Of a stretch of 64,000 bases of DNA, positions 1 to 63,773 are shown in pieces. The translations under genes were made by a program, and so were the position numbers. The notes under the pieces are model-generated. The model was not told the DNA's origin. It saw nothing but the letters and a program-made list of their open reading frames with translations, and searched no databases. Position 1 is the stretch's first letter. Each line of letters opens with the position of its first letter. This DNA comes from Colwellia psychrerythraea 34H (GTDB taxonomy: Bacteria; Pseudomonadota; Gammaproteobacteria; Enterobacterales; Alteromonadaceae), in assembly GCF_000012325.1 (NCBI RefSeq), contig NC_003910.7, positions 3,100,001 through 3,164,000 on the forward strand, given 5' to 3'.

Positions 1-23
1 TAGCGGCACCATATAATATGAAG

Positions 24-58
24 AAGCCGTTTTACTTTATTGTAAAGCGGCTTTTTTA
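24..58 (+). terminator. Rho-independent terminator
   Basis: A 12-bp stem (24-35 with 42-53, one G-T pair) is followed by a run of T. It would end a rightward transcript entering from outside the window. Confidence 0.75.
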
Positions 59-170
59 TTGCCTGTCATATCAAGATGTTAGTCACTAACCCTTGTTCCC
101 AAATAGCTAAATAACTAATACCCTATCACTGAATACTTAAGAAAATTCTCTCAAAGGATCTCCAATTTAC

Positions 171-207
171 TACGGACGTCCGTAATTGTCACTACGGACG
201 TTTTTAT
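171..207 (+). terminator. Possible terminator with an alternative hairpin
   Basis: ACGTCCGTA (176-184) pairs with TACGGACGT (193-201), followed by TTTTATT, giving a terminator-like hairpin. A second upstream copy TACGGAC (171-177) forms a self-palindrome TACGGACGTCCGTA (171-184) that would compete for the same middle strand. The rest of 59-299 shows no gene. Confidence 0.4.
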
Positions 208-299
208 TAGCCTTCAAATGAAATACACGAAATATATTTGAGGCTAAACTTTAACAAATACAAACAAAGTAAAACACCTTAGTAAATGTCATGAGTTGC

Positions 300-365
300 C
301 ACATTCGAGACATTAGCTTTTAAAGACAATCAATACTTCGGATTAGGTTTTGTATCGATAACGCC
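300..365. repeat. Distal border of cassette array 1
   Basis: This segment matches 58485-58551 at its two ends and in the middle: CACATTCGAGACATTAG, then CGGATTAG, then TTGTATCGATAACGCC, with a diverged interior. In both places it lies immediately beyond the last attC of a leftward cassette array. It is therefore the shared distal edge of the two arrays, possibly the outer half of an attI-like site. Confidence 0.7.
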
Positions 366-430
366 GTAATAAGCGGAAAATTACTGTTGGCTAAAATGTT
401 TGAGGCACGAAAACAGCCAACTGTAAATTT
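356..430 (-). repeat. attC site, outer half (split by IS)
   Basis: The core ATAAC at 358-362 is followed by GCC and the self-complementary arms GTTGGCT and AGCCAAC, typical of the attC hairpin. The site is interrupted after position 430 by an IS3-family element and resumes at 1700. It belongs to the UPF0158 cassette, whose gene reads leftward. Confidence 0.75.
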
Positions 431-464
431 TGATCTTCCCCCGATAAAACGGACACATTTTATT

Positions 465-1352
465 TTACGCTGCCAGGGCTTCATATTCTATTGGAGAACA
501 ATAGTTTATCCCTGAATGCATCCTCGAAACATTGTAGTATTTGTTAATGTAGTTGCCAAGTGTTCCGCGCAGTTCTTTATCACTTTTAAACACATTACCA
601 CGAATAACTTCCGTCTTCATTGAATGGAAAAATGACTCCATATGCGCATTATCAGTACATTTTCCAGCTCTACTCAAACTATGAGTGATCCCATGTCGTT
701 TCAATGCTTTCTGGTAAATGTGCCCACGATATTCTACGCCTCTATCAGTGTGGAGCATTAAGTCACCGGATGGTTTGCGTTTCTTAACTGCATTTTGCAA
801 TGTACGCTTGGTCACTTCCATCGTCCTACTTTTATCCAAACTCCAGCTAATAATGCGCCGTGAATATAAATCCATGATGACCGACAAATAACGCCATACG
901 CCTTTAACTTTCAAATATGTGACATCAGCTACCCAGACCTTATCTTTAGCCAATGGGACTTCGCCATCAGGTCGTAAGTTTTTACCTGTCGTTAGGAAGC
1001 GTTTATAAAAGGCTGAACGTGTCGTCACGCGCATCACTCTGGCAACCAAACCAAGCGCACGATACAAACGTTCGACACGTTTTTTACCTATGTTGTACCC
1101 TTGCTTTTGTAAGGCCTTAAATATTCGAGGGCTCCCATATCGTCCTATATTCTCTTTGAAAATTTGCTGTATTTTATGTTTAAGCTCAACATCTTCTATG
1201 GCTATAGCACTCGGTTGGCGCTCACGCCAGTCATAATAACCACTTTTAGATACATCAAAAAACGTCAGTAATCGCGTAACTTTTATGTCGGCTCTGAGTT
1301 TTTCGATGAATCGATATCGACTTGATGTTCCTCTGCAAGAAACCGTTGCCAC
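465..1352 (-). CDS. IS3-family transposase OrfB (DDE integrase domain)
   Basis: This is the catalytic half of an IS3-family transposase, 295 residues. It has an HTH_21-like N-terminal region followed by an rve DDE domain. The catalytic residues are visible as VADVTYL, LHTDRG and MESFFHSMK. The first codon is a GTG directly after the slippery A6G run, so the protein is probably made only as an OrfAB fusion by -1 frameshifting rather than from its own start. No frameshift or stop interrupts the frame, so the element could be active. Confidence 0.92.
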   Translation of the reverse strand: MATVSCRGTSSRYRFIEKLRADIKVTRLLTFFDVSKSGYYDWRERQPSAIAIEDVELKHKIQQIFKENIGRYGSPRIFKALQKQGYNIGKKRVERLYRALGLVARVMRVTTRSAFYKRFLTTGKNLRPDGEVPLAKDKVWVADVTYLKVKGVWRYLSVIMDLYSRRIISWSLDKSRTMEVTKRTLQNAVKKRKPSGDLMLHTDRGVEYRGHIYQKALKRHGITHSLSRAGKCTDNAHMESFFHSMKTEVIRGNVFKSDKELRGTLGNYINKYYNVSRMHSGINYCSPIEYEALAA

Positions 1353-1645
1353 TTTTTTAGGATATACAGCTCCTCCTTGAGTGCTTTATTTTCACGTTCA
1401 AGTTGCTGTTCTTTGGTCAGTACTTTTTTGGCTTTTGATTGCCCTGCCACTTTTTTTCGTTTATCCACCACAATGATCCCTTCACGATATTCTTTTCGCC
1501 ATCGTGACAGCATAAATGGGTGTATGTCGAGTTTTTCAGCGACAGATTTGATTGTGACGCCGACAACAAAACTCAGTTGAACAGCATTGACTTTAAAGTC
1601 GTTTGAATACTTCCAAGTTCGTCTTGGATTGTTGTACTTTGGCAT
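1283..1645 (-). CDS. IS3-family transposase OrfA (HTH DNA-binding)
   Basis: A 120-residue protein with an N-terminal helix-turn-helix of the HTH_Tnp_1 type (the region around DIHPFMLSRWRKEYREG) and a C-terminal leucine-rich coiled coil (EQQLERENKALKEELYILKKW) that overlaps orfB. The ATG at 1645 is preferred over the upstream in-frame codon at 1657 because GAGG lies a few bases upstream. The frame-0 reading through AAAAAAG gives the short OrfA; slipping back one base enters orfB. Confidence 0.9.
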   Translation of the reverse strand: MPKYNNPRRTWKYSNDFKVNAVQLSFVVGVTIKSVAEKLDIHPFMLSRWRKEYREGIIVVDKRKKVAGQSKAKKVLTKEQQLERENKALKEELYILKKWQRFLAEEHQVDIDSSKNSEPT

Positions 1646-1699
1646 AAGACACCTCATCTTTAGTTAGATTTTGGTGTCCGTTAAAGCGGGGGAACTTCA

Positions 1700-1726
1700 T
1701 TGTCCTTGTTAATGCGCTTGTTAGCT
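1700..1726 (-). repeat. attC site, inner half (split by IS)
   Basis: TTGTCCTT...CTTGTTAGCT matches the end of the intact attC at 2167-2269, with core GTTAGCT at 1720-1726. Together with 356-430 it makes one complete attC. Confidence 0.75.
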
Positions 1727-1731
1727 GCTGA

Positions 1732-2139
1732 TTATATAATACCTTGCTCTGTACACCATTCTCGTAATGCATCTTCAGTGTGCTTTGCATCAAATTTATA
1801 CCACTCTTCAATTTTACCAGCGCTCTCTAGTAAAGATTTAAACCTTGCATAGGCACCTTTACGATTGAACATTGAACGTACTTTTTCATATTCTGTCGGT
1901 AAGTATTCTAGAGTAAAATCGAAAGCGAGATTATTGCCAAGATTCAATTCATTTTTATGAGGAATGGTCAAATATTTTTCATCATTAATATCGTCTGGTA
2001 GTTCCTCTTCATTGTCACCAAATTCAGAATAAAAATACGTTCTTCCTGACTCTTTACAAATATACCCCTCATGATCGAACGGAGAACCAAAATTAACTAA
2101 CTCAAATAGCTCTAAAACATCGTTAAATTTAATATTCAT
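1732..2139 (-). CDS. UPF0158 family protein (gene cassette)
   Basis: A 135-residue soluble protein that I recognise as UPF0158. The family pattern is visible: acidic GDNEEELPDDIND, then IPHKNELNLG, then RKGAYARFKSLL, then EWCTEQG near the C terminus. No function is established. The start is supported by AGAGG seven bases upstream. The gene lies between two attC sites in the orientation expected of an integron cassette, with a short leader of about 28 bases after the recombination core. UPF0158 genes are common cargo of chromosomal cassette arrays, which fits the location. Confidence 0.8.
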   Translation of the reverse strand: MNIKFNDVLELFELVNFGSPFDHEGYICKESGRTYFYSEFGDNEEELPDDINDEKYLTIPHKNELNLGNNLAFDFTLEYLPTEYEKVRSMFNRKGAYARFKSLLESAGKIEEWYKFDAKHTEDALREWCTEQGII

Positions 2140-2166
2140 GCCGACCTCTGATTGATTTCACTAAGC

Positions 2167-2269
2167 AGCTAACGCCTAAATAACAGGCTAAGTAATGGTT
2201 GACTAAAATTGTGTAGCGAAGCGAAACGTAGCCAACCATTACGTGTCCTTGTTTATTTACTTGTTAGGT
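2167..2269 (-). repeat. Intact attC site
   Basis: AGCTAAC (2167-2173) and GTTAGGT (2263-2269) are the two outer cores. The interior folds on itself through AGTAATGGTTG and CAACCATTACG with an imperfect loop. Total length is about 103 bp. In cassette orientation (minus strand) it follows the lipoprotein gene and precedes the UPF0158 cassette. Confidence 0.85.
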
Positions 2270-2547
2270 TAATTACTAGGTACAAACAGATCCAAAAGAA
2301 ATTCAACCCAAATAAATGTAGTTTCCTTTTTATTAGCATCGGCTCTCAAAGCATCTTTTTTAGCCTGACATTGAGAAAATATTGCATCTGCATCATTACT
2401 TAAAGAGTCATTCTGATTACCATAAGCTATTTTTCTGCATTCATTTATATCAGCTGATTCATTACCAACACTTGCACAAGAAGTAACTAAGAATACAGCA
2501 CATAATAAAGTAGCTTTAATTGAGATAGATCCAAAAGAGGATTTCAA
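2269..2547 (-). CDS. Small lipoprotein, hypothetical (gene cassette)
   Basis: A 92-residue protein of unknown function with an N-terminal hydrophobic segment ending in LVTSC, a lipobox, so it is likely lipidated at that Cys and periplasm-facing. Two further Cys occur in the mature part. The start is a TTG with AGGTGA six bases upstream. That Shine-Dalgarno is part of the attC core GTTAGGT itself, so the ribosome site lies at the recombination junction. The stop codon touches the attC on the other side. I do not recognise a family. Confidence 0.65.
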   Translation of the reverse strand: MKSSFGSISIKATLLCAVFLVTSCASVGNESADINECRKIAYGNQNDSLSNDADAIFSQCQAKKDALRADANKKETTFIWVEFLLDLFVPSN

Positions 2548-2555
2548 TGATATTC

Positions 2556-2630
2556 ACCTAACGCCTCACTAAGAGGCAAAAAATTGTTGGCTAAAATAAG
2601 CGACGAAGGAGCAAAAGCCAACTTTTTTTG
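2556..2630 (-). repeat. attC site, outer half (split by IS)
   Basis: ACCTAAC (2556-2562) starts the site; GTTGGCT and AGCCAAC form the hairpin arms. It is interrupted after 2630 by the second IS3-family element and resumes at 3910. Confidence 0.75.
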
Positions 2631-2664
2631 TGATCTTCCCCCGATAAAGTGGACACCATCCACT

Positions 2665-3552
2665 TTAATTCACCGCCAATTCAAACTCAGCAGGTGTTTT
2701 ATATCCTAAACTTGAATGCAATCGTTGTCTATTGTAAAAATAGTTCATGTAACCTTTTAATTTTGAATGTAATTTATCAGTAGTCGCGAAGACATTCCCT
2801 CTGATTAAATCAGCTTTTAATGAATGAAAAAATGATTCAACTTCAGCATTATCAGTACAACAACCTGGACGGTTCATACTCGCCGTAATGTTATGTTTAA
2901 CTAAGAACTGCTGCACTACATGTGCTCGATATTCAGCGCCTCTGTCAGTATGAAATAACAAGGGTTGTGTCGGTTTACGCTTCTTTATTGCTAGCTGCAG
3001 CGCTTTCAGTGTCAGCGCTGTTGATTTGTTCTGACCAAAAGCCCAACCAATGATACGACGTGAAAATAAATCTAATACAACGGCTAAGTAATACCAGCGC
3101 GATCCTACTTTCAGGTACGTAATATCTCCCGACCATTGCTGATTGATAGCATCAGGCTTACTTATGTTTTTACGATTGTTTTTGATCGCTTTATAAAAGA
3201 ACTTCACCTTAGCTGGCCTGCTATAAGTCTTGAGCGCTCTAGCGCGTAAGCCATTTTCTCGCATCAACCGTGCAACACGCTTCTCACTCGTTGTAATACC
3301 TTCACGCTTTAATGCATGAAATACGCGTGGGCTGCCGTAGGTTTGATGATTGTTATTAAAGACTTGTTTGATATTTAAAAGTAAATCCGCATCATTAATA
3401 GCACGCATTGAACGTGGACGTCGTCGCCATGCATAAAAGCCACTACGAGAGACATCAAGCCATGAGCAAAGGTATTTAACACCTAAGGCTTCTTTGTGTT
3501 TTTCGATGAATCCAAATCGCTCTGATGGACTTCCGCCAGATACCGTTGCCAC
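2665..3552 (-). CDS. IS3-family transposase OrfB (DDE integrase domain)
   Basis: A 295-residue catalytic subunit with the DDE triad in SGDITYLKV, LFHTDRGAEY and EVESFFHSLK. It begins with GTG immediately after the A6G slippery run at 3552-3558, so it is most likely expressed as an OrfAB fusion. Same length and layout as the OrfB of copy A at 465-1352 but clearly diverged in sequence. Confidence 0.92.
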   Translation of the reverse strand: MATVSGGSPSERFGFIEKHKEALGVKYLCSWLDVSRSGFYAWRRRPRSMRAINDADLLLNIKQVFNNNHQTYGSPRVFHALKREGITTSEKRVARLMRENGLRARALKTYSRPAKVKFFYKAIKNNRKNISKPDAINQQWSGDITYLKVGSRWYYLAVVLDLFSRRIIGWAFGQNKSTALTLKALQLAIKKRKPTQPLLFHTDRGAEYRAHVVQQFLVKHNITASMNRPGCCTDNAEVESFFHSLKADLIRGNVFATTDKLHSKLKGYMNYFYNRQRLHSSLGYKTPAEFELAVN

Positions 3553-3857
3553 TTTTTTAGTAAATCATTTTCCATTTTTAAACGGTCGTTTTCTTTTTGC
3601 AGCTGTTTAATTTTATTTAGTTCTTTCTTTGTGGGGATTTTACTCATGAGTTCACTATTGCTCTGATAGTGTTGGTTTTTTTTAAACTTCCCTTCTCGGT
3701 ATTCTTTACGCCAACGGCTTAGCATTAACGGGTGAATATCCAACGCTTGAGCAACATCCTTAGATAACATGTCGTTTCGTAAGCTTAGCTCGACAGCTTT
3801 AATTTTGAAATTAACAGGGTAAAACCACGTCTTTTTAGGTTGGGTATATCTAGGCAT
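3483..3857 (-). CDS. IS3-family transposase OrfA (HTH DNA-binding)
   Basis: A 124-residue protein with an N-terminal helix-turn-helix (DIHPLMLSRWRKEYREG) and a C-terminal coiled coil (KQLQKENDRLKMENDLLKKW). The ATG at 3857 follows a strong GAGGAGG five bases upstream. That ribosome site is inside a perfect hairpin (3863-3884), which would limit translation from transcripts entering the element from outside. It overlaps orfB by 70 bases across the frameshift window. Confidence 0.9.
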   Translation of the reverse strand: MPRYTQPKKTWFYPVNFKIKAVELSLRNDMLSKDVAQALDIHPLMLSRWRKEYREGKFKKNQHYQSNSELMSKIPTKKELNKIKQLQKENDRLKMENDLLKKWQRYLAEVHQSDLDSSKNTKKP

Positions 3858-3862
3858 TTTAG

Positions 3863-3884
3863 CCTCCTCAATGTTATGAGGAGG
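3863..3884 (-). promoter_or_regulatory. Hairpin sequestering the orfA ribosome site
   Basis: CCTCCTCA (3863-3870) and TGAGGAGG (3877-3884) are perfect complements around a 6-base loop. On the minus strand the second arm is the Shine-Dalgarno of orfA. Readthrough RNA would fold and hide it, while a promoter starting within the hairpin would not. This is a known style of IS self-control; here it is inferred from sequence only. Confidence 0.6.
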
Positions 3885-3909
3885 TGTCCACTAAAACGGG
3901 GGAACTTCA

Positions 3910-3935
3910 TTGTCCTTTTAAGTGACTTGTTATGT
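3910..3935 (-). repeat. attC site, inner half (split by IS)
   Basis: TTGTCCTTTTAAGTGACTTG followed by core GTTATGT (3929-3935). With 2556-2630 it makes one attC. The stop codon of the RDD gene lies within this core. Confidence 0.7.
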
Positions 3936-4529
3936 GCCTGTGTAGCTGACTTTTGTTTTAGCCAAGTAGTCATGTAAGCAACGTCTTTGCTTACCAAAAA
4001 TAAACAGTGGATTTACAATGCCTGATATAAACTGTCCAAAAGATGGTATTAAACCGATCAATTGCATTGGTAACATCCGTTTAAAATAAATAGTAGCTAA
4101 ACTTGCTTTTGTACCATCTAAGTTTTCAATACGAATAGACATATAATTTTTGCCAATTGTTTGTCCGTAGTAATATAAAAGATAGCCGTGTAATACCATC
4201 GTAACGAAAACACCATATATAAACAAAATCCCCAGCAGAGATAAAGATGGTTCTTTGAATGAATCAAAGCCTACATAAAATATAACTGGCACTAGTGATA
4301 TGATTCCGATAACACCATCTATAATTGCTGCCATTAACCTATCAGATTTTGTAGCTTTTTCTCCGATATCTTTGGTTGTATCAATTTCTTCAGGAAATTC
4401 AGCTTCTTTTTGACGAATCAAGCCATCTATTTCTTTTGCTCTTTCAGGATAAACATCTCGATCTATTGATTCTGCGGAAGAATAAAGATCATTTAGAGAA
4501 TATGATGAAAAATCTATTTTTGAATCCAT
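3930..4529 (-). CDS. RDD family membrane protein (gene cassette)
   Basis: A 199-residue inner-membrane protein of the RDD family. Residues 1-60 are a charged cytoplasmic region. Transmembrane segments follow at about 65-85, 95-120 and 150-175. The family hallmark is seen as RLMAAIIDGVIG at the first segment and GKNYMSIRIENLDG in the loop. Function is not established for the family. It is the first cassette of array 1; its leader contains AAGGAG but the spacing to ATG is long. The stop codon overlaps the attC core. Confidence 0.75.
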   Translation of the reverse strand: MDSKIDFSSYSLNDLYSSAESIDRDVYPERAKEIDGLIRQKEAEFPEEIDTTKDIGEKATKSDRLMAAIIDGVIGIISLVPVIFYVGFDSFKEPSLSLLGILFIYGVFVTMVLHGYLLYYYGQTIGKNYMSIRIENLDGTKASLATIYFKRMLPMQLIGLIPSFGQFISGIVNPLFIFGKQRRCLHDYLAKTKVSYTGT

Positions 4530-4549
4530 GCTTACGACTACTCCTTGTC

Positions 4550-4703
4550 ACATAACCGCTTATTATGGAGACTTCTCAGTAATGTCCGTCCCATAAATTT
4601 AATTTTATGTGCATTAATATCCCATATTTTCAGTGTCTTATAAACTAAAGATATTTTATTTTTGTTAGGTTTTGGATATTACTGAGACTTCTCAGTAATA
4701 TCC
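4550..4703. repeat. Proximal border of cassette array 1
   Basis: This segment is homologous to 63253-63404 at the equivalent end of array 2. Shared landmarks in order are ACATAAC, TTATTATG, AGAC-TCTCAGTAAT, ATTAATATC, and GGATATTACTGAGA. It lies where attI would be expected in an integron reading leftward. GTTAGGT at 4664-4670 resembles an attC/attI core. No integrase gene is present nearby. Confidence 0.65.
4674..4703. repeat. Palindromic repeat GGATATTACTGAGA
   Basis: GGATATTACTGAGA, a two-base centre CT, then its exact complement: a 30-base perfect palindrome. Shorter copies occur at 4771-4794 and 63381-63404, and half copies at 4567-4583 and 63271-63285. Confidence 0.8.
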
Positions 4704-4770
4704 AACATAGAATTAAAGGCTATTTCAAACAATATCAATTAGTTAGGGTTTAGAAAGATTGATTTGGGTT

Positions 4771-4794
4771 TATTACTGAGACTTCTCAGTAATA
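4771..4794. repeat. Palindromic repeat, second copy
   Basis: TATTACTGAGA + CT + TCTCAGTAATA, 24 bases, perfect arms, about 97 bp from the previous copy. The 340 bases that follow, up to 5134, hold no gene I can support. Confidence 0.8.
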
Positions 4795-5134
4795 TGACAC
4801 AGTCAATCCATTAGAAAATATATCGCAAATATTTTGAAGCTAACTTCCGCTCTGCGCACTGAGGAGTCTTTAGCAACGGTAAATTTTGAACGCGTTTTAT
4901 ATTCACTGTTGATACGAAAGCTTACCTTTCAGGCTAAAAACGGTCGTTGGTAGAGACTTGTCTATAAAACCAGAAACGGGGGCACTGTATCTTGACTGGG
5001 ATTATGCAACATAAGGTTTTAGGTTAAAATCTGCTTCGGATGTTTACTGACAATAAGCGTTTAGCATGTACTGAAAATTAAGGTTAGATTTCTGCTATAG
5101 GAAATCCACCTTCAAACATTATTGCTATTAGAGA

Positions 5135-5804: not shown

Positions 5805-6047
5805 AACAAAAGAGCAACGGCCTTACTTGCATAACTGTAAAAAAACTCGACAATTACCATCAAGCTTTATCTTCTTTTAGCGACTAGTTGCTTAAAGAAA
5901 AGCTAATAGTTAACGTCAATAATGCGCACCAAGAAGGCCGTGGCAGCAGAACATCATCATGGTCGTTAAAGTTATTATCGAAGGTTCACTAAGGGAACGG
6001 TTAACACCAAAAATTTAAACGGCTTGGGATAGTTGCTTTATGGCTAC

Positions 6048-58161: not shown

Positions 58162-58515
58162 ATGTCAGCACCTATTCTTAACCGCTGCGATATTGAGTTT
58201 TTCCTTGACGAGATGTTTGACGTGGAATCGTTAACTAATCGTGAGAAATACCAAGATCATGACCGAACGACTATCAATGGTGCAATAGACACCGCTCAAT
58301 CGATAACTGACAATAAAGCGGCAATATTACAAAATCATGGCCTATTAACAGTCGGTGAAACGGTCGAGTCAGCCGTGTGGTGGTTTATTGCAATGGAACG
58401 ATGTTCCCAAGCTCAATTATTAGCACAAGCGGCAAAAACACCAAAACTAACATGTCTATCTGCTCTGAGAATGCTACCTTATATCACATTCGAGACATTA
58501 GTACTAAAGGGCTAA
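58162..58515 (+). pseudogene. Chimeric remnant: acyl-CoA dehydrogenase N terminus joined to class II aldolase fragment
   Basis: The first 50 or so residues (SAPILNRCDIEFFLDEMFDV, then REKYQDHDRTT and AIDTAQS) look like the N terminus of an acyl-CoA dehydrogenase. From about residue 52 it reads NKAAILQNHGLLTVGETVES and AVWWFIAMERCSQAQLLAQA, which is a middle piece of a class II aldolase/adducin domain. The two are joined in frame and both are incomplete, ending at the border of cassette array 2. It is open for 117 codons but is unlikely to be functional. Confidence 0.7.
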
Positions 58516-58551
58516 GACTAAATCCGGATTAGAGTTTGTATCGATAACGCC
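58485..58551. repeat. Distal border of cassette array 2
   Basis: The counterpart of 300-365, identical in its first 17 and last 16 bases. It overlaps the last codons of the chimeric remnant. Confidence 0.7.
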
Positions 58552-58573
58552 CAGCTTTAGTCACTAGTTATGC
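58541..58573 (-). repeat. Collapsed attC
   Basis: CGATAACGCC and GTTATGC, the two outer ends of an attC, are only 33 bases apart; the central hairpin is missing. It lies just past the YdeI-like gene. Confidence 0.5.
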
Positions 58574-58583
58574 CGAGTCATAC

Positions 58584-59159
58584 TTATTTGGGCTTTTCTT
58601 CGTGAACAAGCATATTCATGAATTTTTCAAACCGCCTTAGTCTAGTTTCGGGCTTCTTTGCACTTATCAATCCGTAAGCGATAACATAACGACTGGATTT
58701 ATTGAGCGTTTCAAAAAACGCTTTAGCATTCGACTTATTCTCCAGTGCCGCCAGGAAATCTGCAGGTACTTCCATTTCACTTACTACATAGGCGTTTTCC
58801 CAACGACCGTCCGATTTTGCAGCACGAATATGCACGAGTCCTGATTCCATCATCCGCTCTTCACTTATCAATCGTTCAGCATGCTCTGTGTTCCTTTTAG
58901 ACCAATTGCTTCGCATTTTTCTGGGAGTAATGCGCTGAAGATAGGCTTGGTCATCGATTGACTTCTTGATACCATCAATCCAACCCCAACATAGAACCTC
59001 GATCACGACATCATTCCAAGTCACACTCTCAATCCCAGTATTTTTTTTGTATATCTTCACCCATAGTTCTCTTTCAGAGCCATGATTCACCTTTAGCCAC
59101 TCACCGAGATCTTTCGGTGTGGTAAACGTCTTGATTCTCAATGGATCTGGTTCAGGCAT
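58584..59159 (-). CDS. YdeI/OmpD-associated family protein (gene cassette)
   Basis: A 191-residue soluble protein recognised as YdeI family: GEWLKVNHGSERELWVKIYK, VEVLCWGWIDGIKKSIDD-like residues and RITPRKMRSNWSKRNTEHAE. Called bacteriocin-protection in some annotations; biochemical function is not established. GAGGG is seven bases before the ATG. It overlaps the DUF2867 gene by eight bases, so this cassette carries two genes. Confidence 0.85.
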   Translation of the reverse strand: MPEPDPLRIKTFTTPKDLGEWLKVNHGSERELWVKIYKKNTGIESVTWNDVVIEVLCWGWIDGIKKSIDDQAYLQRITPRKMRSNWSKRNTEHAERLISEERMMESGLVHIRAAKSDGRWENAYVVSEMEVPADFLAALENKSNAKAFFETLNKSSRYVIAYGLISAKKPETRLRRFEKFMNMLVHEEKPK

Positions 59160-59673
59160 CTGAGCCCTCCGCTCGCTTAATGGATGAAGGTACTATTAAT
59201 TTATGCATAGGCTTCACGAACAACATATATAATTTACCAAGAAAATTATGAACATGCACCACAGTCGACATTGAAACTACATGGGGTTTACCCACTTCGG
59301 TATGCACGGAAACATTTACATCCAAATGTTTATCCGAATCACCTAAAATAATTTCATTATCACTTAAAAAAAGTAAGGTAAAGATCCCAACCCTATCACC
59401 TACTTGATATTCACAAAGTAGTTTATTTGCGTCTAAGTCACCTAAATGACCAATATTATTCAACCCAAACACTGATACAATTTTATTTCGACTGGCCATT
59501 AAAAAATTAACCCAACTAGGTACTTTAGATGCGTGGTCTATCCAAATTTGAAGTGCAACTCTGCCTGGTTTGCTTGAACAAAAAGAGTATGAGTCTGAGT
59601 AATAGGAACCGTTAAGAATTTTAAATACCTCACTGTTAATTGGGACACATACTTTCTTAACAGGAAACGCCAT
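59152..59673 (-). CDS. DUF2867 family protein (gene cassette)
   Basis: A 173-residue protein resembling DUF2867: YYSDSYSFCSSKPGR near the N terminus, GDRVGIFTLLFLSDNEIILG in the middle and VHVHNFLGKLYMLFVKPMHKL near the C terminus. Function unknown. It begins about 20 bases after the attC core and overlaps the YdeI-like gene. Confidence 0.78.
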   Translation of the reverse strand: MAFPVKKVCVPINSEVFKILNGSYYSDSYSFCSSKPGRVALQIWIDHASKVPSWVNFLMASRNKIVSVFGLNNIGHLGDLDANKLLCEYQVGDRVGIFTLLFLSDNEIILGDSDKHLDVNVSVHTEVGKPHVVSMSTVVHVHNFLGKLYMLFVKPMHKLIVPSSIKRAEGSDA

Positions 59674-59692
59674 AGTCAGATACTCTGTTGAT

Positions 59693-59792
59693 GCCTAACG
59701 GCCCAATAAGGGGCTAAGAATTGTATGTTAAAAGTGAAGCTGAACGGAACCGAGCAAACGGTGAGCAGTCCCGCTTAATTGGCTGGTTAGCA
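59693..59792 (-). repeat. attC site
   Basis: GCCTAAC (59693-59699) and GTTAGCA (59786-59792) are the outer cores, 100 bp apart. The interior is weakly self-complementary and diverged from the other sites in this window. Confidence 0.75.
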
Positions 59793-59798
59793 ATACGG

Positions 59799-60374
59799 TT
59801 ACATGCCAACAAGGGTTGCATACAAACCGAAAACAGCCAAGAACCAAAATACAACTCCTAATGCTAACCAAAAATAATTTAAGCCCGTTAGATTGCTATT
59901 TGATTCGCCATGTACATCTTCACCAGCAAAGTTTGCCAAAGATTGCGCTTGATACAAAACCCAACACGATACAGGTAGAATTAATAAGCTAAAGTAAAAG
60001 GTTATTGGGTTGCCGTAGCCATTATCTGAAAATTGACCAAAAATTTGGCAACCAATAGTAAATACCACATATATGGTTGCCAAATAATTAATGCTTTTAG
60101 GCTTTTCTCCAGTTTTGTTTGTGTATTTCATTTCGAATAAAGCAAACAAAGAATGAGTAAAGAAGATAGAAAATATTCCCCTCATAATTGGCCACATATC
60201 TTCATTCGCACTTTTTTTGTATTGGCTCCAATGTTTAAAGAACCAATAAACGGTATATAGACTAAATGTGCCGATGAATAAAATTAAGAATTTTTTTGGG
60301 GATACTACATAAAATTCCATTTCATTTGATTTAACTTGAGATTCAGCTTCAGAACTTTCGTTACTTGCTTGCAT
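59799..60374 (-). CDS. Hypothetical membrane protein (gene cassette)
   Basis: A 191-residue protein with a hydrophilic N-terminal part (about 20 residues) and about four or five hydrophobic segments. FYVVSPKKFLILFIGTFSLY and TVYWFFKHWSQYKK are at its start and resemble DUF4234-type proteins only in general. AAGGAG is six bases before the ATG at 60374; the upstream in-frame start at 60404 has none. Function unknown. Confidence 0.7.
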   Translation of the reverse strand: MQASNESSEAESQVKSNEMEFYVVSPKKFLILFIGTFSLYTVYWFFKHWSQYKKSANEDMWPIMRGIFSIFFTHSLFALFEMKYTNKTGEKPKSINYLATIYVVFTIGCQIFGQFSDNGYGNPITFYFSLLILPVSCWVLYQAQSLANFAGEDVHGESNSNLTGLNYFWLALGVVFWFLAVFGLYATLVGM

Positions 60375-60395
60375 TGCTACTCCTTGCTGATGTAT

Positions 60396-60467
60396 TGCTA
60401 ACACTTGCTTAAGCAGGAAATATAGTTGGCTATAATGTTTGAGGAACGAAAAACAGCCAACTGTAGA
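60396..60467 (-). repeat. attC half-site
   Basis: TGCTAAC core and the arms GTTGGCT and AGCCAACTGT are present, but the other core is missing: the YidC-like gene's stop codon falls where it should be. Probably truncated. Confidence 0.6.
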
Positions 60468-61118
60468 TTAAATCGCTTTATTGATTTCTTGTTTTTGAAA
60501 ATAGTTATTAAGCACCAATGATTGCAGTAAACTTGTAACGCTAGATGTTGCCCAATATAAGCCGATAGCTGATGGGAAACTGATTAAGGTAATAATACAA
60601 ATAATAGCGGGAATAATAAATAATAAGGTGCTTGTTTGCTCAGCACTACCAGGCATCATGATCATAGAAAAATAGGTAATAACTCCGACCAATAATGCGA
60701 GTGCAACATCTGGCTTTGCAATATTAGCAATCCAAGCAAACTTACTATTAAACACTATCTGTTGAAGAGCTTGGAACATGCCAAAACCAAAAACGCCCTG
60801 ACTGGCGATATTAATAACACTCTTTTTATCTAGAATTTTAATGTTGTTCTTTTTATATAACGCCATTGTAGATTTGGCTATTTCATTAGGTTTATCTTTA
60901 TGTATAACTTTTATTTTATCCAATTCTGGTTTTAATGCTGATATTGCCTTTTTATTTCTATACATATTCGCCATAGCTAAAAGATTAATTGGCATTAAAA
61001 CCAAGCGACCTATCAGAGTGAACAAAATGATTGCCACAGCCTCACCAACACCCACTTCGTGGGTCAAAAACGCTATAGACTGCACAATAAAACTTGTAAA
61101 AAAATTCCAAATATCCAT
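60468..61118 (-). CDS. YidC/Oxa1-family membrane insertase paralogue (gene cassette)
   Basis: A 216-residue inner-membrane protein of the YidC/Oxa1/Alb3 family. AIILFTLIGRLVLMPINLLA carries the conserved Arg of the hydrophilic groove, followed by the cytoplasmic hairpin KKAISALKPELDKIKVIHKD and ALYKKNNIK. Three or four more membrane segments follow. It lacks the large periplasmic domain of proteobacterial YidC, as in Gram-positive or accessory forms. AAGGAAG before the ATG at 61118 favours this start over 61139. It has its own promoter with twin operators. Confidence 0.82.
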   Translation of the reverse strand: MDIWNFFTSFIVQSIAFLTHEVGVGEAVAIILFTLIGRLVLMPINLLAMANMYRNKKAISALKPELDKIKVIHKDKPNEIAKSTMALYKKNNIKILDKKSVINIASQGVFGFGMFQALQQIVFNSKFAWIANIAKPDVALALLVGVITYFSMIMMPGSAEQTSTLLFIIPAIICIITLISFPSAIGLYWATSSVTSLLQSLVLNNYFQKQEINKAI

Positions 61119-61131
61119 TTCAACTTCCTTT

Positions 61132-61177
61132 TTTGACATATTATGTCAAAAATAACCAGTAAGACATATTATGTCAA
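61132..61177 (-). promoter_or_regulatory. Promoter with twin palindromic operators
   Basis: GACATATTATGTC (6-1-6 palindrome) occurs twice, at 61135-61147 and 61163-61175. Read on the minus strand, TTGACA (61172-61177) and TATTTT (61149-61154) lie 17 bases apart as a -35/-10 pair. One operator covers the -35 and the other the start region, a clear repression layout. Confidence 0.6.
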
Positions 61178-61244
61178 GTGATTTTTATTGGTACTTTTTG
61201 ATACTGAAACATGTTGAAATTATAAAACCGACAGTTTTAAAAGC

Positions 61245-61346
61245 ATGTAACGCACCCCAATAAACGGCTAAAAATTGTTTACTAAAATATTTGAATCACG
61301 AACAACAGCCAGCTGTTATTTGTTACTTTAGACACCCTCTTAGTGC
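61245..61346 (-). repeat. attC site with degenerate core
   Basis: ATGTAAC (61245-61251), a fold-back TTGTTTACT/AACAACAGCCAGC region and TTAGTGC near the other end. The second core has lost its leading G. It lies between the YidC-like and DUF1993 genes. Confidence 0.6.
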
Positions 61347-61348
61347 TG

Positions 61349-61876
61349 TCATGCCTCCCAGCTAAATCCCTTTGGATACTGGTGTATTCCATCGAAATCA
61401 CCTTTTGTAACTGAAACACCATTGTTCTTTGCAATAGCATATACCATGCTGATATGAAAAAAGAAATTGGGGAGCACAAATGAAGACATATATTCTGAAG
61501 CTGGCATAGATATTTCTTTAAACCCAGCAGTGTCTTGAACGTTGAGGTTTAGCTGTTCTAATGTTGGTTCAGATAATTTATTAATATAATCAATTGCGGT
61601 TACAACATACGTTTTAAGTCCGCAAAAACTATCAATATCACCCTCTAACTCTTTATATTCTTTACCAGATAGAGGACAACAAGCTCTTAAAGCAAAATTT
61701 GTTGCGATTTTTGCTTGTACGTTGAATGGAAACATATCATCAACAAGTCTTGCATTAAGCAACTCTGATTCATTTAAAGAGCTATCTTCAACTTTTTCGA
61801 TAAGCTTATGAAGAAGCTCTAAATGCTTCAAAAATATATCTCGATGTTTAATATACAAATCAATTCTCGATAGCAC
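61349..61876 (-). CDS. DUF1993 family protein (gene cassette)
   Basis: A 175-residue protein recognised as DUF1993 by ELLNARLVDDMFPFNVQAKIA at about residue 38 and by PNFFFHISMVYAIAKNNGV near the C terminus, a DinB-like helical fold. Function unknown. The GTG at 61876 gives the normal length, but it lies only two bases after the cassette junction (G|TTAGTG), with no ribosome site of its own. A later TTG is possible. Confidence 0.75.
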   Translation of the reverse strand: MLSRIDLYIKHRDIFLKHLELLHKLIEKVEDSSLNESELLNARLVDDMFPFNVQAKIATNFALRACCPLSGKEYKELEGDIDSFCGLKTYVVTAIDYINKLSEPTLEQLNLNVQDTAGFKEISMPASEYMSSFVLPNFFFHISMVYAIAKNNGVSVTKGDFDGIHQYPKGFSWEA

Positions 61877-61972
61877 TAACGCTTGATTAACAGGAAAAAA
61901 ATAGTTGGTTAAAATAAGCTACGCAGGAGCAAAAACCAACTGTTATTTGTCCTGCTTTAACAACTTTTAGCT
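61874..61972 (-). repeat. attC site
   Basis: CACTAAC (61874-61880) starts it; arms AGTTGGTT and AACCAACTGT form the hairpin; TTTAGCT (61966-61972) is a degenerate second core. Total about 99 bp. Confidence 0.7.
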
Positions 61973-61976
61973 TTGA

Positions 61977-62489
61977 TTAGAAATAAAAATTTAATCCTAT
62001 TGCACCGTAATTTGTATCTGACGCCACATTAAATTCTGATTTTATCTCAATCATTTTATTGAACTTATATGAAAGGCCTGCTCCAAATAATACTCCTCCA
62101 CTTGAGTCGTCTGAAAAGTTATTTGTAATTGGAACTGCCGTTACATCACTACTTTGGGAAAAATAGCCTAGTTTTCCTATAAGATTAAAATTCCCGATAG
62201 GATATGTATAAAGTGCTGAGAGTGAAATTGCATCACTATCGATTGAGTATTTCACATTAGACTTGGTCGTGTCATAACCACCTAGATCTAGATAGCTTGC
62301 TTCAACAGCAAACGATGAGTTTATTTTGTACCCCAAGTGAACCTCATAGCCTGAATTATATTCAGACTCTCCAGCTAAGTCAGTTTCAGCACTTAAAACT
62401 GATGCACCTGCATAATATCCTGATGTATCAGCTAAGACACTTGTTGTGAATAGAGTACCTAAAATGGCAGATATAATCCTTATTTGCAT
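61977..62489 (-). CDS. Outer-membrane beta-barrel protein (gene cassette)
   Basis: A 170-residue exported protein: signal peptide residues 1-20 (cleaved near VLADT), then about eight alternating amphipathic strands and a terminal Phe in GAIGLNFYF. This is the small OmpA-like/opacity-type barrel. AAGGAATAATAA precedes the ATG. No binding partner can be named. Confidence 0.8.
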   Translation of the reverse strand: MQIRIISAILGTLFTTSVLADTSGYYAGASVLSAETDLAGESEYNSGYEVHLGYKINSSFAVEASYLDLGGYDTTKSNVKYSIDSDAISLSALYTYPIGNFNLIGKLGYFSQSSDVTAVPITNNFSDDSSGGVLFGAGLSYKFNKMIEIKSEFNVASDTNYGAIGLNFYF

Positions 62490-62532
62490 TTATTATTCCT
62501 TTAGTTAATTAAATACTACAGTTTGATTTTAA

Positions 62533-62561
62533 AGTTAACGCCTCTGAATGACTTGTTATGT
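62533..62561 (-). repeat. Collapsed attC
   Basis: AGTTAACGCC and CTTGTTATGT, the two ends of an attC, are 29 bases apart with no central hairpin. The stop codon of the next gene lies in the second core. Confidence 0.5.
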
Positions 62562-63236
62562 TCGATGAGCACCAACTTCAAAAAACTTCACTTTCTCAGA
62601 GATTTGCTTTAACACCCATGGAGGAGTAATAACTGAAATATTAGTTACTCCCAATTCTATGAGACTATCCAAGGAATAATACCAACCTACATATCCTTTA
62701 TTGCCATATAGGTTTTGATAATATTCTGATTGCCCTAAAGAAGATATTTCACGGTTAACATTTATTTTTTTATAAAATTGGATTTCTCTTTGACTTGATT
62801 TTTCAATATATTTTTTTACTTGTTTTTGCTGATTTTCAGGTAAAGTTGATATTTGAGAAGCAATATTAGCTAAACCACCATGAAACCCAACTATTCCTGT
62901 GTTACTCAAGATTTTATTTTTACCTGCGGGAAATACGTAGTTAGCGCATGATGAAAGACAATAATCTAAAACCTTAACGTTTAATTGGTTTTCAAAAATA
63001 AACTCGGCCAAATCCATGCCGTTATTAACGTCACCGCCTTTGCTTTTAATCACTACAGTATCAGTAGTTTGGTGGTTTTCTTTATATAATGAAAACAATT
63101 CAATATTGGCTTCTTTACGTATTCCACCATCATAATGAATTTCATTTCCCTGAACAAAAACACTTGTTATTTCTTCAGAGAAAACATTAAACGATAATAA
63201 TAGCGATAATAAAACCACTTCTCGTAGATTCAACAT
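62556..63236 (-). CDS. Secreted ClpP/crotonase-fold protein (gene cassette)
   Basis: A 226-residue protein with a signal peptide (residues 1-20). The middle has a ClpP-like serine-protease fold as in COG3904 proteins: VVIKSKGGDVNNGMDLAEFI, DYCLSSCANYVFPAGKNK (candidate Ser) and GIVGFHGGLAN (candidate His). Activity is not shown. AAGGAG is eight bases before the ATG. First cassette of array 2. Confidence 0.75.
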   Translation of the reverse strand: MLNLREVVLLSLLLSFNVFSEEITSVFVQGNEIHYDGGIRKEANIELFSLYKENHQTTDTVVIKSKGGDVNNGMDLAEFIFENQLNVKVLDYCLSSCANYVFPAGKNKILSNTGIVGFHGGLANIASQISTLPENQQKQVKKYIEKSSQREIQFYKKINVNREISSLGQSEYYQNLYGNKGYVGWYYSLDSLIELGVTNISVITPPWVLKQISEKVKFFEVGAHRT

Positions 63237-63252
63237 ACTAACTCCTTTTAGT

Positions 63253-63404
63253 ACATAACAGTTTATTATGTAGACGTCTCAGTAATAACGCCCGTTGTTT
63301 ATATTTGATTTACATTACATTAATATCACATAATTTCAATAGTTTAGAAACTGAAAATTTTTATTTTGTTAAAACTTGGATATTACTGAGAAGTCTCAGT
63401 AATA
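63253..63404. repeat. Proximal border of cassette array 2
   Basis: Homologous to 4550-4703, with the same order of blocks, ending in the palindrome TATTACTGAGA-AG-TCTCAGTAATA at 63381-63404. Confidence 0.65.
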
Positions 63405-63410
63405 TAAAAC

Positions 63411-63773
63411 ATGCAACCCAATACAATTATCCATATTATCAACACCCCCAAAGCAAACAACTATTTATACGCAGCGAGTAAAGCGGCAATTATTCAAATG
63501 ACACATCACCTTACTGCTGATTTAGTGAAAGACAATATAAACATTAATGCGATAGCTCCGGGGTTCTTCCTAAGTAAGTTAACTAAATATATTGTTAACG
63601 AACAAGAAGCACAATTTGATAAAAAAATGGTGCCAAAAGAGCGTTTAGGTCAAACAGAAGATATTGCTGACGCTGCCATATATTTATCCTCACAAGCATC
63701 AAGTTGGATGACGGGACACACATTAGTACTAGATGGCGGTGTTATTGCAAACAGTGGTTATGGTGAGTTTTAG
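63411..63773 (+). pseudogene. Short-chain dehydrogenase lacking its N-terminal half
   Basis: 120 codons that match the C-terminal half of an SDR: YAASKAAIIQMTHHLT with the catalytic Tyr and Lys, NINAIAPGFFLSK, RLGQTEDIADAAIYLSS and GHTLVLDGG. The NAD-binding TGxxxGxG region and about 130 residues are missing; the frame starts seven bases from the array-2 palindrome. Most likely the array replaced the front of the gene. Confidence 0.8.

Follow-up and report, generated by a model that had tools for sequence, protein, structure and literature searches.

A 64,000-base stretch of the Colwellia psychrerythraea 34H genome (NC_003910.7, bases 3,100,001-3,164,000; the whole stretch is referred to as the window) carries two integron-type gene cassette arrays that hold different genes and are enclosed by the same pair of borders. 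An integron-integrase gene (intI) was not seen among the open reading frames (ORFs) of the window, for which the ORF list was read and no profile scan was made. The locus raises the question of whether the arrays are remnants of a decayed integron or copies of a unit that spread together with its borders. We consider it rather probable that each array is a copy of a dispersed integrase-less integron unit, in which one intI-deleted derivative was multiplied as a whole. Such a unit would begin with an outer left end; next would come an attI-like head containing palindromes, then cassettes with their attC sites, and lastly a fixed tail followed by an outer right end.

Repeated borders and an attI-like head

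The head borders of the two arrays (window 4540-4715 and 63241-63412) were 76% identical over ~170 bases (E 9.1e-26), and the tail borders (window 285-370 and 58485-58551) were 78% identical over 67 bases (E 2.2e-7). This confirmed an earlier, sequence-only reading of the window, which had claimed that the arrays have common borders on both sides. The cassette genes and the attC-like sites of both arrays are in minus-strand orientation, which makes the right-hand border of each array the head (the attI side) and the left-hand border the tail. To the border matches of that reading, which stood, this adds the polarity; the extent of the head of array 1 was corrected and reaches to ~4859.

Both borders recur in the genome, which was searched as a single contig of 5,373,180 bases. 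Fourteen separate head places were identified (E 3.1e-9 or better; one is only 34 bases long), nine of which have a tail further along in the same unit. The tail core, GTTATCGATACAAAANCTAATC, was present at 16 places with up to 3 mismatches and at 10 with up to 1 mismatch, versus none for the reversed pattern. The border pair is therefore not a product of chance, and the further arrays with these ends that the earlier reading had proposed to look for do exist. Single units are scattered (both window units, 375-378 kb and 3629 kb), and others form head-to-tail clusters (206-211 kb and 1676-1698 kb). Within the genus, 34 of 39 genomes gave head matches (E 0.001 or better, counting the own genome); within the family, 48 of 395 genomes, from 11 of 52 genera, had the tail core. 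The scanned loci contained 66 outer left ends; for 43 of them, a tail of the same unit comes 649 to 4995 bases further on (one tail was counted for two outer ends). A tail match was located up to 400 bases upstream of 20 of the 66 outer left ends. In another genus of the family (G045, L288 and L282), one unit of ~13.2 kb holds 22 attC matches and no IntI match.

The attC-like sites were identified with a covariance model made from 13 seed sites, five of which come from the window and match by construction. Seven sites were identified in the window, all on the minus strand and all within the two arrays. The neighbourhood of the borders was counted in loci chosen for the presence of heads or tails. 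A same-strand attC match lies within 3 kb downstream of 61 of 81 heads, and three heads have an opposite-strand match. Among 70 tail cores, 39 abut an attC match directly, and 15 more have one within 2.5 kb. This places attC on the expected side of 61/81 heads and 54/70 tail cores.

The head border matches the region between intI and the first cassette, i.e., attI and its palindromes, of a rarer Colwellia integrase lineage (IntI-B). An integron-integrase model scored above the cut-off in 31 of the 39 genus genomes. The commoner integrase forms lineage A (an A query matches all 27 loci, L077-L103, at ≥56%), and IntI-B is ~41-46% identical to it (11 of the 27 A loci entered this comparison with an IntI-like match). 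In relatives, the head is present beside intI-B in divergent orientation (L107, L108, L109/L167, L168, L174 and L175; the intI-B copy of L174 is truncated and 55-65% identical). It lies between intI and the first cassette, the position of an attI, in L107, L108, L109, L168, L174 and L175 (the contig of L108 ends at the head). The palindrome that the earlier reading had suggested seeking beside an integrase gene was found in this setting, the head layout being present next to intI-B. The attI region of lineage A has a different sequence and a similar layout. Judged by sequence, the head border is attI-like. The proposal of an attI-like site was supported in part, by a head border that adjoins full-length intI in relatives; the corresponding empty site was unseen. 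The regions adjoining the 66 outer left ends were B-like in 50 cases, A-like in seven (spanning ≥185 bases in two and only 38-68 bases in five) and neither in nine.

The own-genome intI-B is a fragment (4197959-4198351) with an internal stop, 79-82% identical to intact copies. It is the sole clear integrase match in the genome and lies ~1.03 Mb from the window. Two other integrase matches (37 and 22 bits) were at or below the strength of control-genome tyrosine recombinases. We infer that IntI loads and shuffles cassettes in trans at these attI copies; as the own intI-B is a fragment, cassette loading is probably frozen in this genome at present.

Probable loss of intI and spread of the unit

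The outer left end lies just past the 3' end of intI-B in three relatives (L109, L175 and L113). The integrase gene is intact in L109, gutted in L175 and broken by stops in L113. The head is on the other side of intI in L109 and L175, so that intI lies between the outer end and the head; no head was detected in L113, which holds only an intI remnant and, further on, a tail. In the integrase-less units, the palindrome follows the outer end directly. A type-1 palindrome was located within 120 nt of 57 of 90 subterminal anchors, and the spacing between palindrome and anchor is 15-17 nt in 53 of these and exactly 16 nt in 48. The junction thus varies by no more than one base around 16 in 53 of the 57 integrase-less type-1 heads, and this uniformity indicates a single deletion, later copied. 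On this evidence, intI was probably deleted once and the intI-less unit then multiplied as a whole; a single loss, from an intI-B integron with related outer ends, is well supported by the sequences compared.

Eighty heads were compared, 55 of them with a recognisable outer end. For pairs that were ≥88% identical over ≥140 bases and had usable flanks, the flanks were compared over 800 bases, starting 100 bases outside the outer end (E 1e-5). The flanks were without detectable similarity in 72 of 73 such near-identical head pairs, pairs between genera included. The heads of L288 and L291, for example, come from different genera and are 94% identical, and their flanks are unrelated. Since near-identical heads occupy unrelated places, a unit with these ends has probably spread. 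The suggestion in the sequence-only reading that a mobile unit with these ends moves whole cassette runs was upheld in part: spread is probable, and the means of movement is surmised.

The homology ended within 20 bases of the outer motif in 573 of 613 tail pairs, which had to reach within 25 bases of the motif to be counted, and in 26 of 36 head pairs, for which the breakpoints scatter more (-53 to +31). Multiple copies with homology ending at one boundary, as looked for in a transposon or a miniature inverted-repeat transposable element (MITE), are thus present. When left and right outer ends were compared in the inverted orientation, the profile score was 10.15, a value reached by none of 2000 column shuffles (mean 3.6, s.d. 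0.5). The outer motifs were also scanned in 390 kb of the own genome chosen for its units, with totals that include the units' own ends. The right motif gave 32 matches versus nine in one shuffle, and the left motif 19 versus three.

The history that we favour would begin with an ancestor carrying intI-B between the outer left end and the head. The tail would be the far side of the attI as it was before cassette loading, and the outer right end would be related to the outer left end. A derivative with intI deleted at one junction would then have multiplied over its full length between the outer ends, reaching scattered sites as well as head-to-tail clusters in several genera. As long as IntI proteins were available, they would have acted in trans to load its cassettes and shuffle them. 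We infer that the unit moves through its ends as a non-autonomous element, served by an enzyme encoded elsewhere.

Weighing the explanations

Several observations weigh against this account. No attC match was found for 16 of the 70 tail cores and 20 of the 81 heads (two of the 20 have <450 bases left downstream). A type-1 palindrome within 120 nt is missing from 33 of the 90 anchors, which may reflect other head types, decay or chance. The outer end was not found past intI in the intI-B or B-like loci L107, L108, L168 and L112, the integrase of L112 being only ~58% identical to B. In the pair test, 12 of 32 heads follow another unit, whose cassettes form part of the flank; once heads following a tail were left out, the flanks were unrelated in 25 of 26 pairs. 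Ten of the 36 head pairs end >15 bases inside the motif, and the head boundary is therefore less sharp than that of the tail. The outer ends scored 9.0 in the direct orientation, nearly equal to the inverted score, and are thus partly self-palindromic rather than clean terminal inverted repeats. Those of unit 1 fold little better than shuffles (z -0.19 and -1.38). Target-site duplications were absent in 28 unit pairs, with no offset enriched, and no moving enzyme was identified for the units.

No unit with the head joined to the tail, the empty site sought by the earlier reading, was found in the 39 genus genomes (≤3 mismatches) or, as an exact match, in genome_contigs and viral_contigs; the search used consensus patterns, which diverged junctions would escape. 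The borders may nonetheless be attI halves, since an attI in use may rarely be empty. The outer motifs occur away from arrays as well. Places with the right motif and neither a head nor a tail core include 722362, 2514276 and 3444405, and those with the left motif include 716586, 1666897, 1667375 and 3105911. The earlier reading had held that border matches found widely outside arrays, or the lack of a genome with the two borders joined without cassettes, would refute it. The first applies in part, to the outermost motifs of both borders, although the inner parts accompany attC sites; the second applies as worded. A near-relative comparison was made at one locus (own TetR-like gene at 1698719), where the gap from the left-hand neighbour to the homology on the right is 219, 367, 447 and 1681 bases in four relatives. 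The corresponding distance here is 35.5 kb, a difference of a large segment; the comparison reveals that the region is variable but does not capture a single unit arriving.

Under the usual account of clusters of attC sites lacking integron-integrases (CALINs), the arrays would be what is left of a single large chromosomal integron, broken up and dispersed through rearrangement and decay. In its favour, the attC type of the units recurs in the main intI-A integrons of relatives, the own genome has lost its full-length integrase, several borders are degraded, and 5 of the 14 heads are missing a recognised tail. Rearrangement, however, splits one attI and one end, and does not yield 14 heads and at least 10 tails; the heads outnumber what one ancestral array could supply, and their flanks are unrelated. 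Heads >90% identical occupy unrelated places and different genera, and 12 intI-A stretches (L238-L249, with arrays partly covered) contained no tail, outer end or type-1 head. We regard this account as quite unlikely. Homologous recombination, in which gene conversion or transformation would spread heads and tails between arrays with the outer motifs as short homologies, would explain why heads of two attI lineages share the outer end and the tail, as swapping would give, and would fit the presence of outer motifs elsewhere in the genome. It is at odds with the unrelated flanks of near-identical heads and with a shared outer motif of only ~20-35 bases, a length that is short for RecA-type exchange, and we consider it unlikely too.

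Spread could also have been driven by the integrase itself, if the stretch from tail through linker to head acted as a cassette ending in attI, a delta-attI-type cassette (PMC12901181), and was inserted by IntI at cassette or genomic sites. In the tandem clusters, tail, linker and next head adjoin one another, and a G/TT core site marks either boundary of the stretch. Yet a tail match within 400 bases upstream is missing from 46 of the 66 outer ends, and the head homology stops near the outer motif and does not enter a tail, which leaves this route improbable. The three loci with the outer end beside an intact, stop-containing or gutted intI-B might suggest that the units were complete intI-B integrons on arrival, each losing intI on its own. 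The near-uniform junction of the 53 integrase-less heads makes such repeated loss very improbable.

The window units and related systems

All features of both units lie on the minus strand. Unit 1 (window 297..4859) comprises the outer left end (at 4859), the attI-like head, the array, the tail and the outer right end (at 297). Its outer left end, GTGCGC...GAAGTTAGCTTCAAAATATTTGCGATATATTTTCTAATG, occupies 4809..4859 (genome place 3104809-3104847). The head border (4551..4703) contains an attI-type core, AAGCGG/TTATG, with a predicted crossover between 4556 and 4555, a palindrome (4678-4699) that folds as a 9-bp hairpin, and a degenerate palindrome at ~4567-4583; a second full palindrome, ATTACTGAGA..TCTCAGTAAT, is located at 4772..4793. 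No sigma-70-type promoter was found in this head, versus 1.8 expected by chance. The tail border (297..362) consists of the core GTTATCGATACAAAACCTAATC (341-362) and the outer right end CTAATGTCTCGAATGTGGCA.

Array 1 has three attC-like sites. The last (359..436, 56.8 bits) abuts the tail directly, and the others are at 2170..2258 (73.0 bits, a model seed) and 2559..2636 (69.9 bits). Its first cassette gene (3930..4529) encodes an RDD-family membrane protein (PF06271, E 1.5e-17); genes for proteins of 92 aa (2269..2547) and 135 aa (1732..2139) are without a Pfam match. Two different insertion sequences (~430-1715 and ~2630-3925) apparently lie inside attC sites at the same relative position, and as read split the sites at 359..436 and 2559..2636. 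Each has ORFs of 124 and 295 aa, a pattern from which we take them to be IS3-like, and their ends match (repeats D9 and D10). They possibly belong to an attC-targeting group.

Unit 2 (58482..63412) comprises a head, an array and a tail. Its head adjoins what reads as an SDR-like gene fragment, and an outer left end was searched for there and not found. The head border (63241..63412) has a predicted crossover between 63259 and 63258 and a palindrome at 63382-63403. The tail border (58482..58548) has its core at 58527-58548 with one mismatch and no abutting attC match. The four attC-like sites of array 2, all model seeds, are at 59696..59781 (64.2 bits), 60399..60483 (65.7 bits), 61253..61335 (65.7 bits) and 61877..61962 (89.5 bits). 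The seven cassette genes (58584..63236) encode, from the head, a 226-aa protein without a Pfam match, OMP_b-brl, DUF1993 and 60KD_IMP proteins, a 201-aa protein without a match, and DUF2867 and OmdA proteins.

Some further stretches resemble parts of the unit. A lone outer-left motif (GTGCGCATTATTGACGTTA) is present on the minus strand outside the arrays (window ~5911-5929). Just beyond the tail of unit 1, window 1-290 (minus strand) reads as ACGGACGTCCGT palindromes and an AT-rich part like an outer end, and is possibly a remnant of another head type. Elsewhere in the genome, ~400 bases from 1666893 to ~1667290 hold both outer motifs and several perfect palindromes, with neither a head nor a tail core, and possibly represent a cassette-free member of the same repeat family. 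Tn7-like genes lie between two units of the 1676-1698 kb cluster (1679893-1684825; L025/L026); a TniQ domain was identified (PF06527, E 3e-7), a TnsA-like match fell below the cut-off, and TnsB and TnsC were assigned by reading only. As candidates for moving the units they were set aside: no match to the outer-left motif with <6 mismatches was found in 1678500-1688500, and no link is claimed.

Heads were also observed beside other genes. Several genomes of the genus, among them G004, G006, G014 and G027, have intI-A directly downstream of serS; in this genome (2867255-2869168), a head without an integrase occupies that side of the gene. In two genomes of another genus (L283:2084-4179 and L291:6967-8286), a tyrosine-recombinase gene begins ~100 bases past the attI core of the head; its product is 26-29% identical to IntI. 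The gene that follows it in L283 is presumably an IS91-type transposase, and a similar gene pair is present among attC sites in L278.

Among known systems, the sedentary chromosomal integron with intI-A shares the attC type of the units, an attI with palindromes flanking an AT-rich gap, and a core like AATAAnCTGTTA in many copies. It differs in having intI and long arrays; the tail and the outer ends are those missing from the 12 stretches mentioned above. A complete integron is found only in relatives such as L109, as both window arrays have an attI-like head and attC sites and lack intI. The Tn402/class 1 integron is characterised by tni genes and 25-bp inverted repeats (IRi/IRt) with 5-bp duplications. 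As read, no tni genes were seen among the ORFs of the window. A Tn402-like integron with flanking MITE-like structures was reportedly described by Gillings in 2009. Integron mobilization units (Poirel 2009) are known from resistance plasmids, and natural elements bounded by them also occur without flanking direct repeats (PMC13367494). The units share with both of these a transposase-less stretch in which two related ends enclose an integron-type array that may be moved in trans. Unlike them, most units here are without intI, and they occur in marine bacteria in many chromosomal copies and head-to-tail clusters; their ends are partly self-palindromic motifs of ~20-35 bp.

As attC arrays without a nearby intI, the window arrays resemble CALINs (Cury et al., cited in PMC8618304 and PMC9024848). 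They contain three and four clustered attC-like sites, compared with the two required by the definition. The IntegronFinder 2.0 counts give 2961 CALINs and 2760 complete integrons, and the same source describes attI sites as poorly described outside class 1 (PMC9024848). The arrays differ from CALINs in that each has retained an attI-like head and a fixed tail, elements that recur many times in the genome. A passage of PMC8618304 gives off-target insertion, intI loss and rearrangement as the origins of CALINs; the copying of a whole unit is not among them.

In the open-licence PubMed Central literature, no report was noticed of an attI-headed integrase-less unit in many chromosomal copies. CALINs and mobilization units are known, and such a unit is apparently undescribed in the literature searched. 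The arrays would represent a class of integrase-less clusters that possess an attI and a fixed end of their own and have a history of copying. Clusters of this kind are usually taken for decayed integrons, whereas these look like whole-unit spread; the ends and the many natural copies make the origin of CALINs testable. More tentatively, the units may form a "distributed integron", a transposable integrase-less unit with attI and an array as its cargo. It would have multiplied in several marine genera, providing many landing sites for integrase acting in trans and carrying arrays to new places and hosts, with an outer shell that became joined to attI regions from two integrase lineages. Should the units move, no integrase is needed for cassette arrays to travel, and a single integrase could serve many sites per cell.

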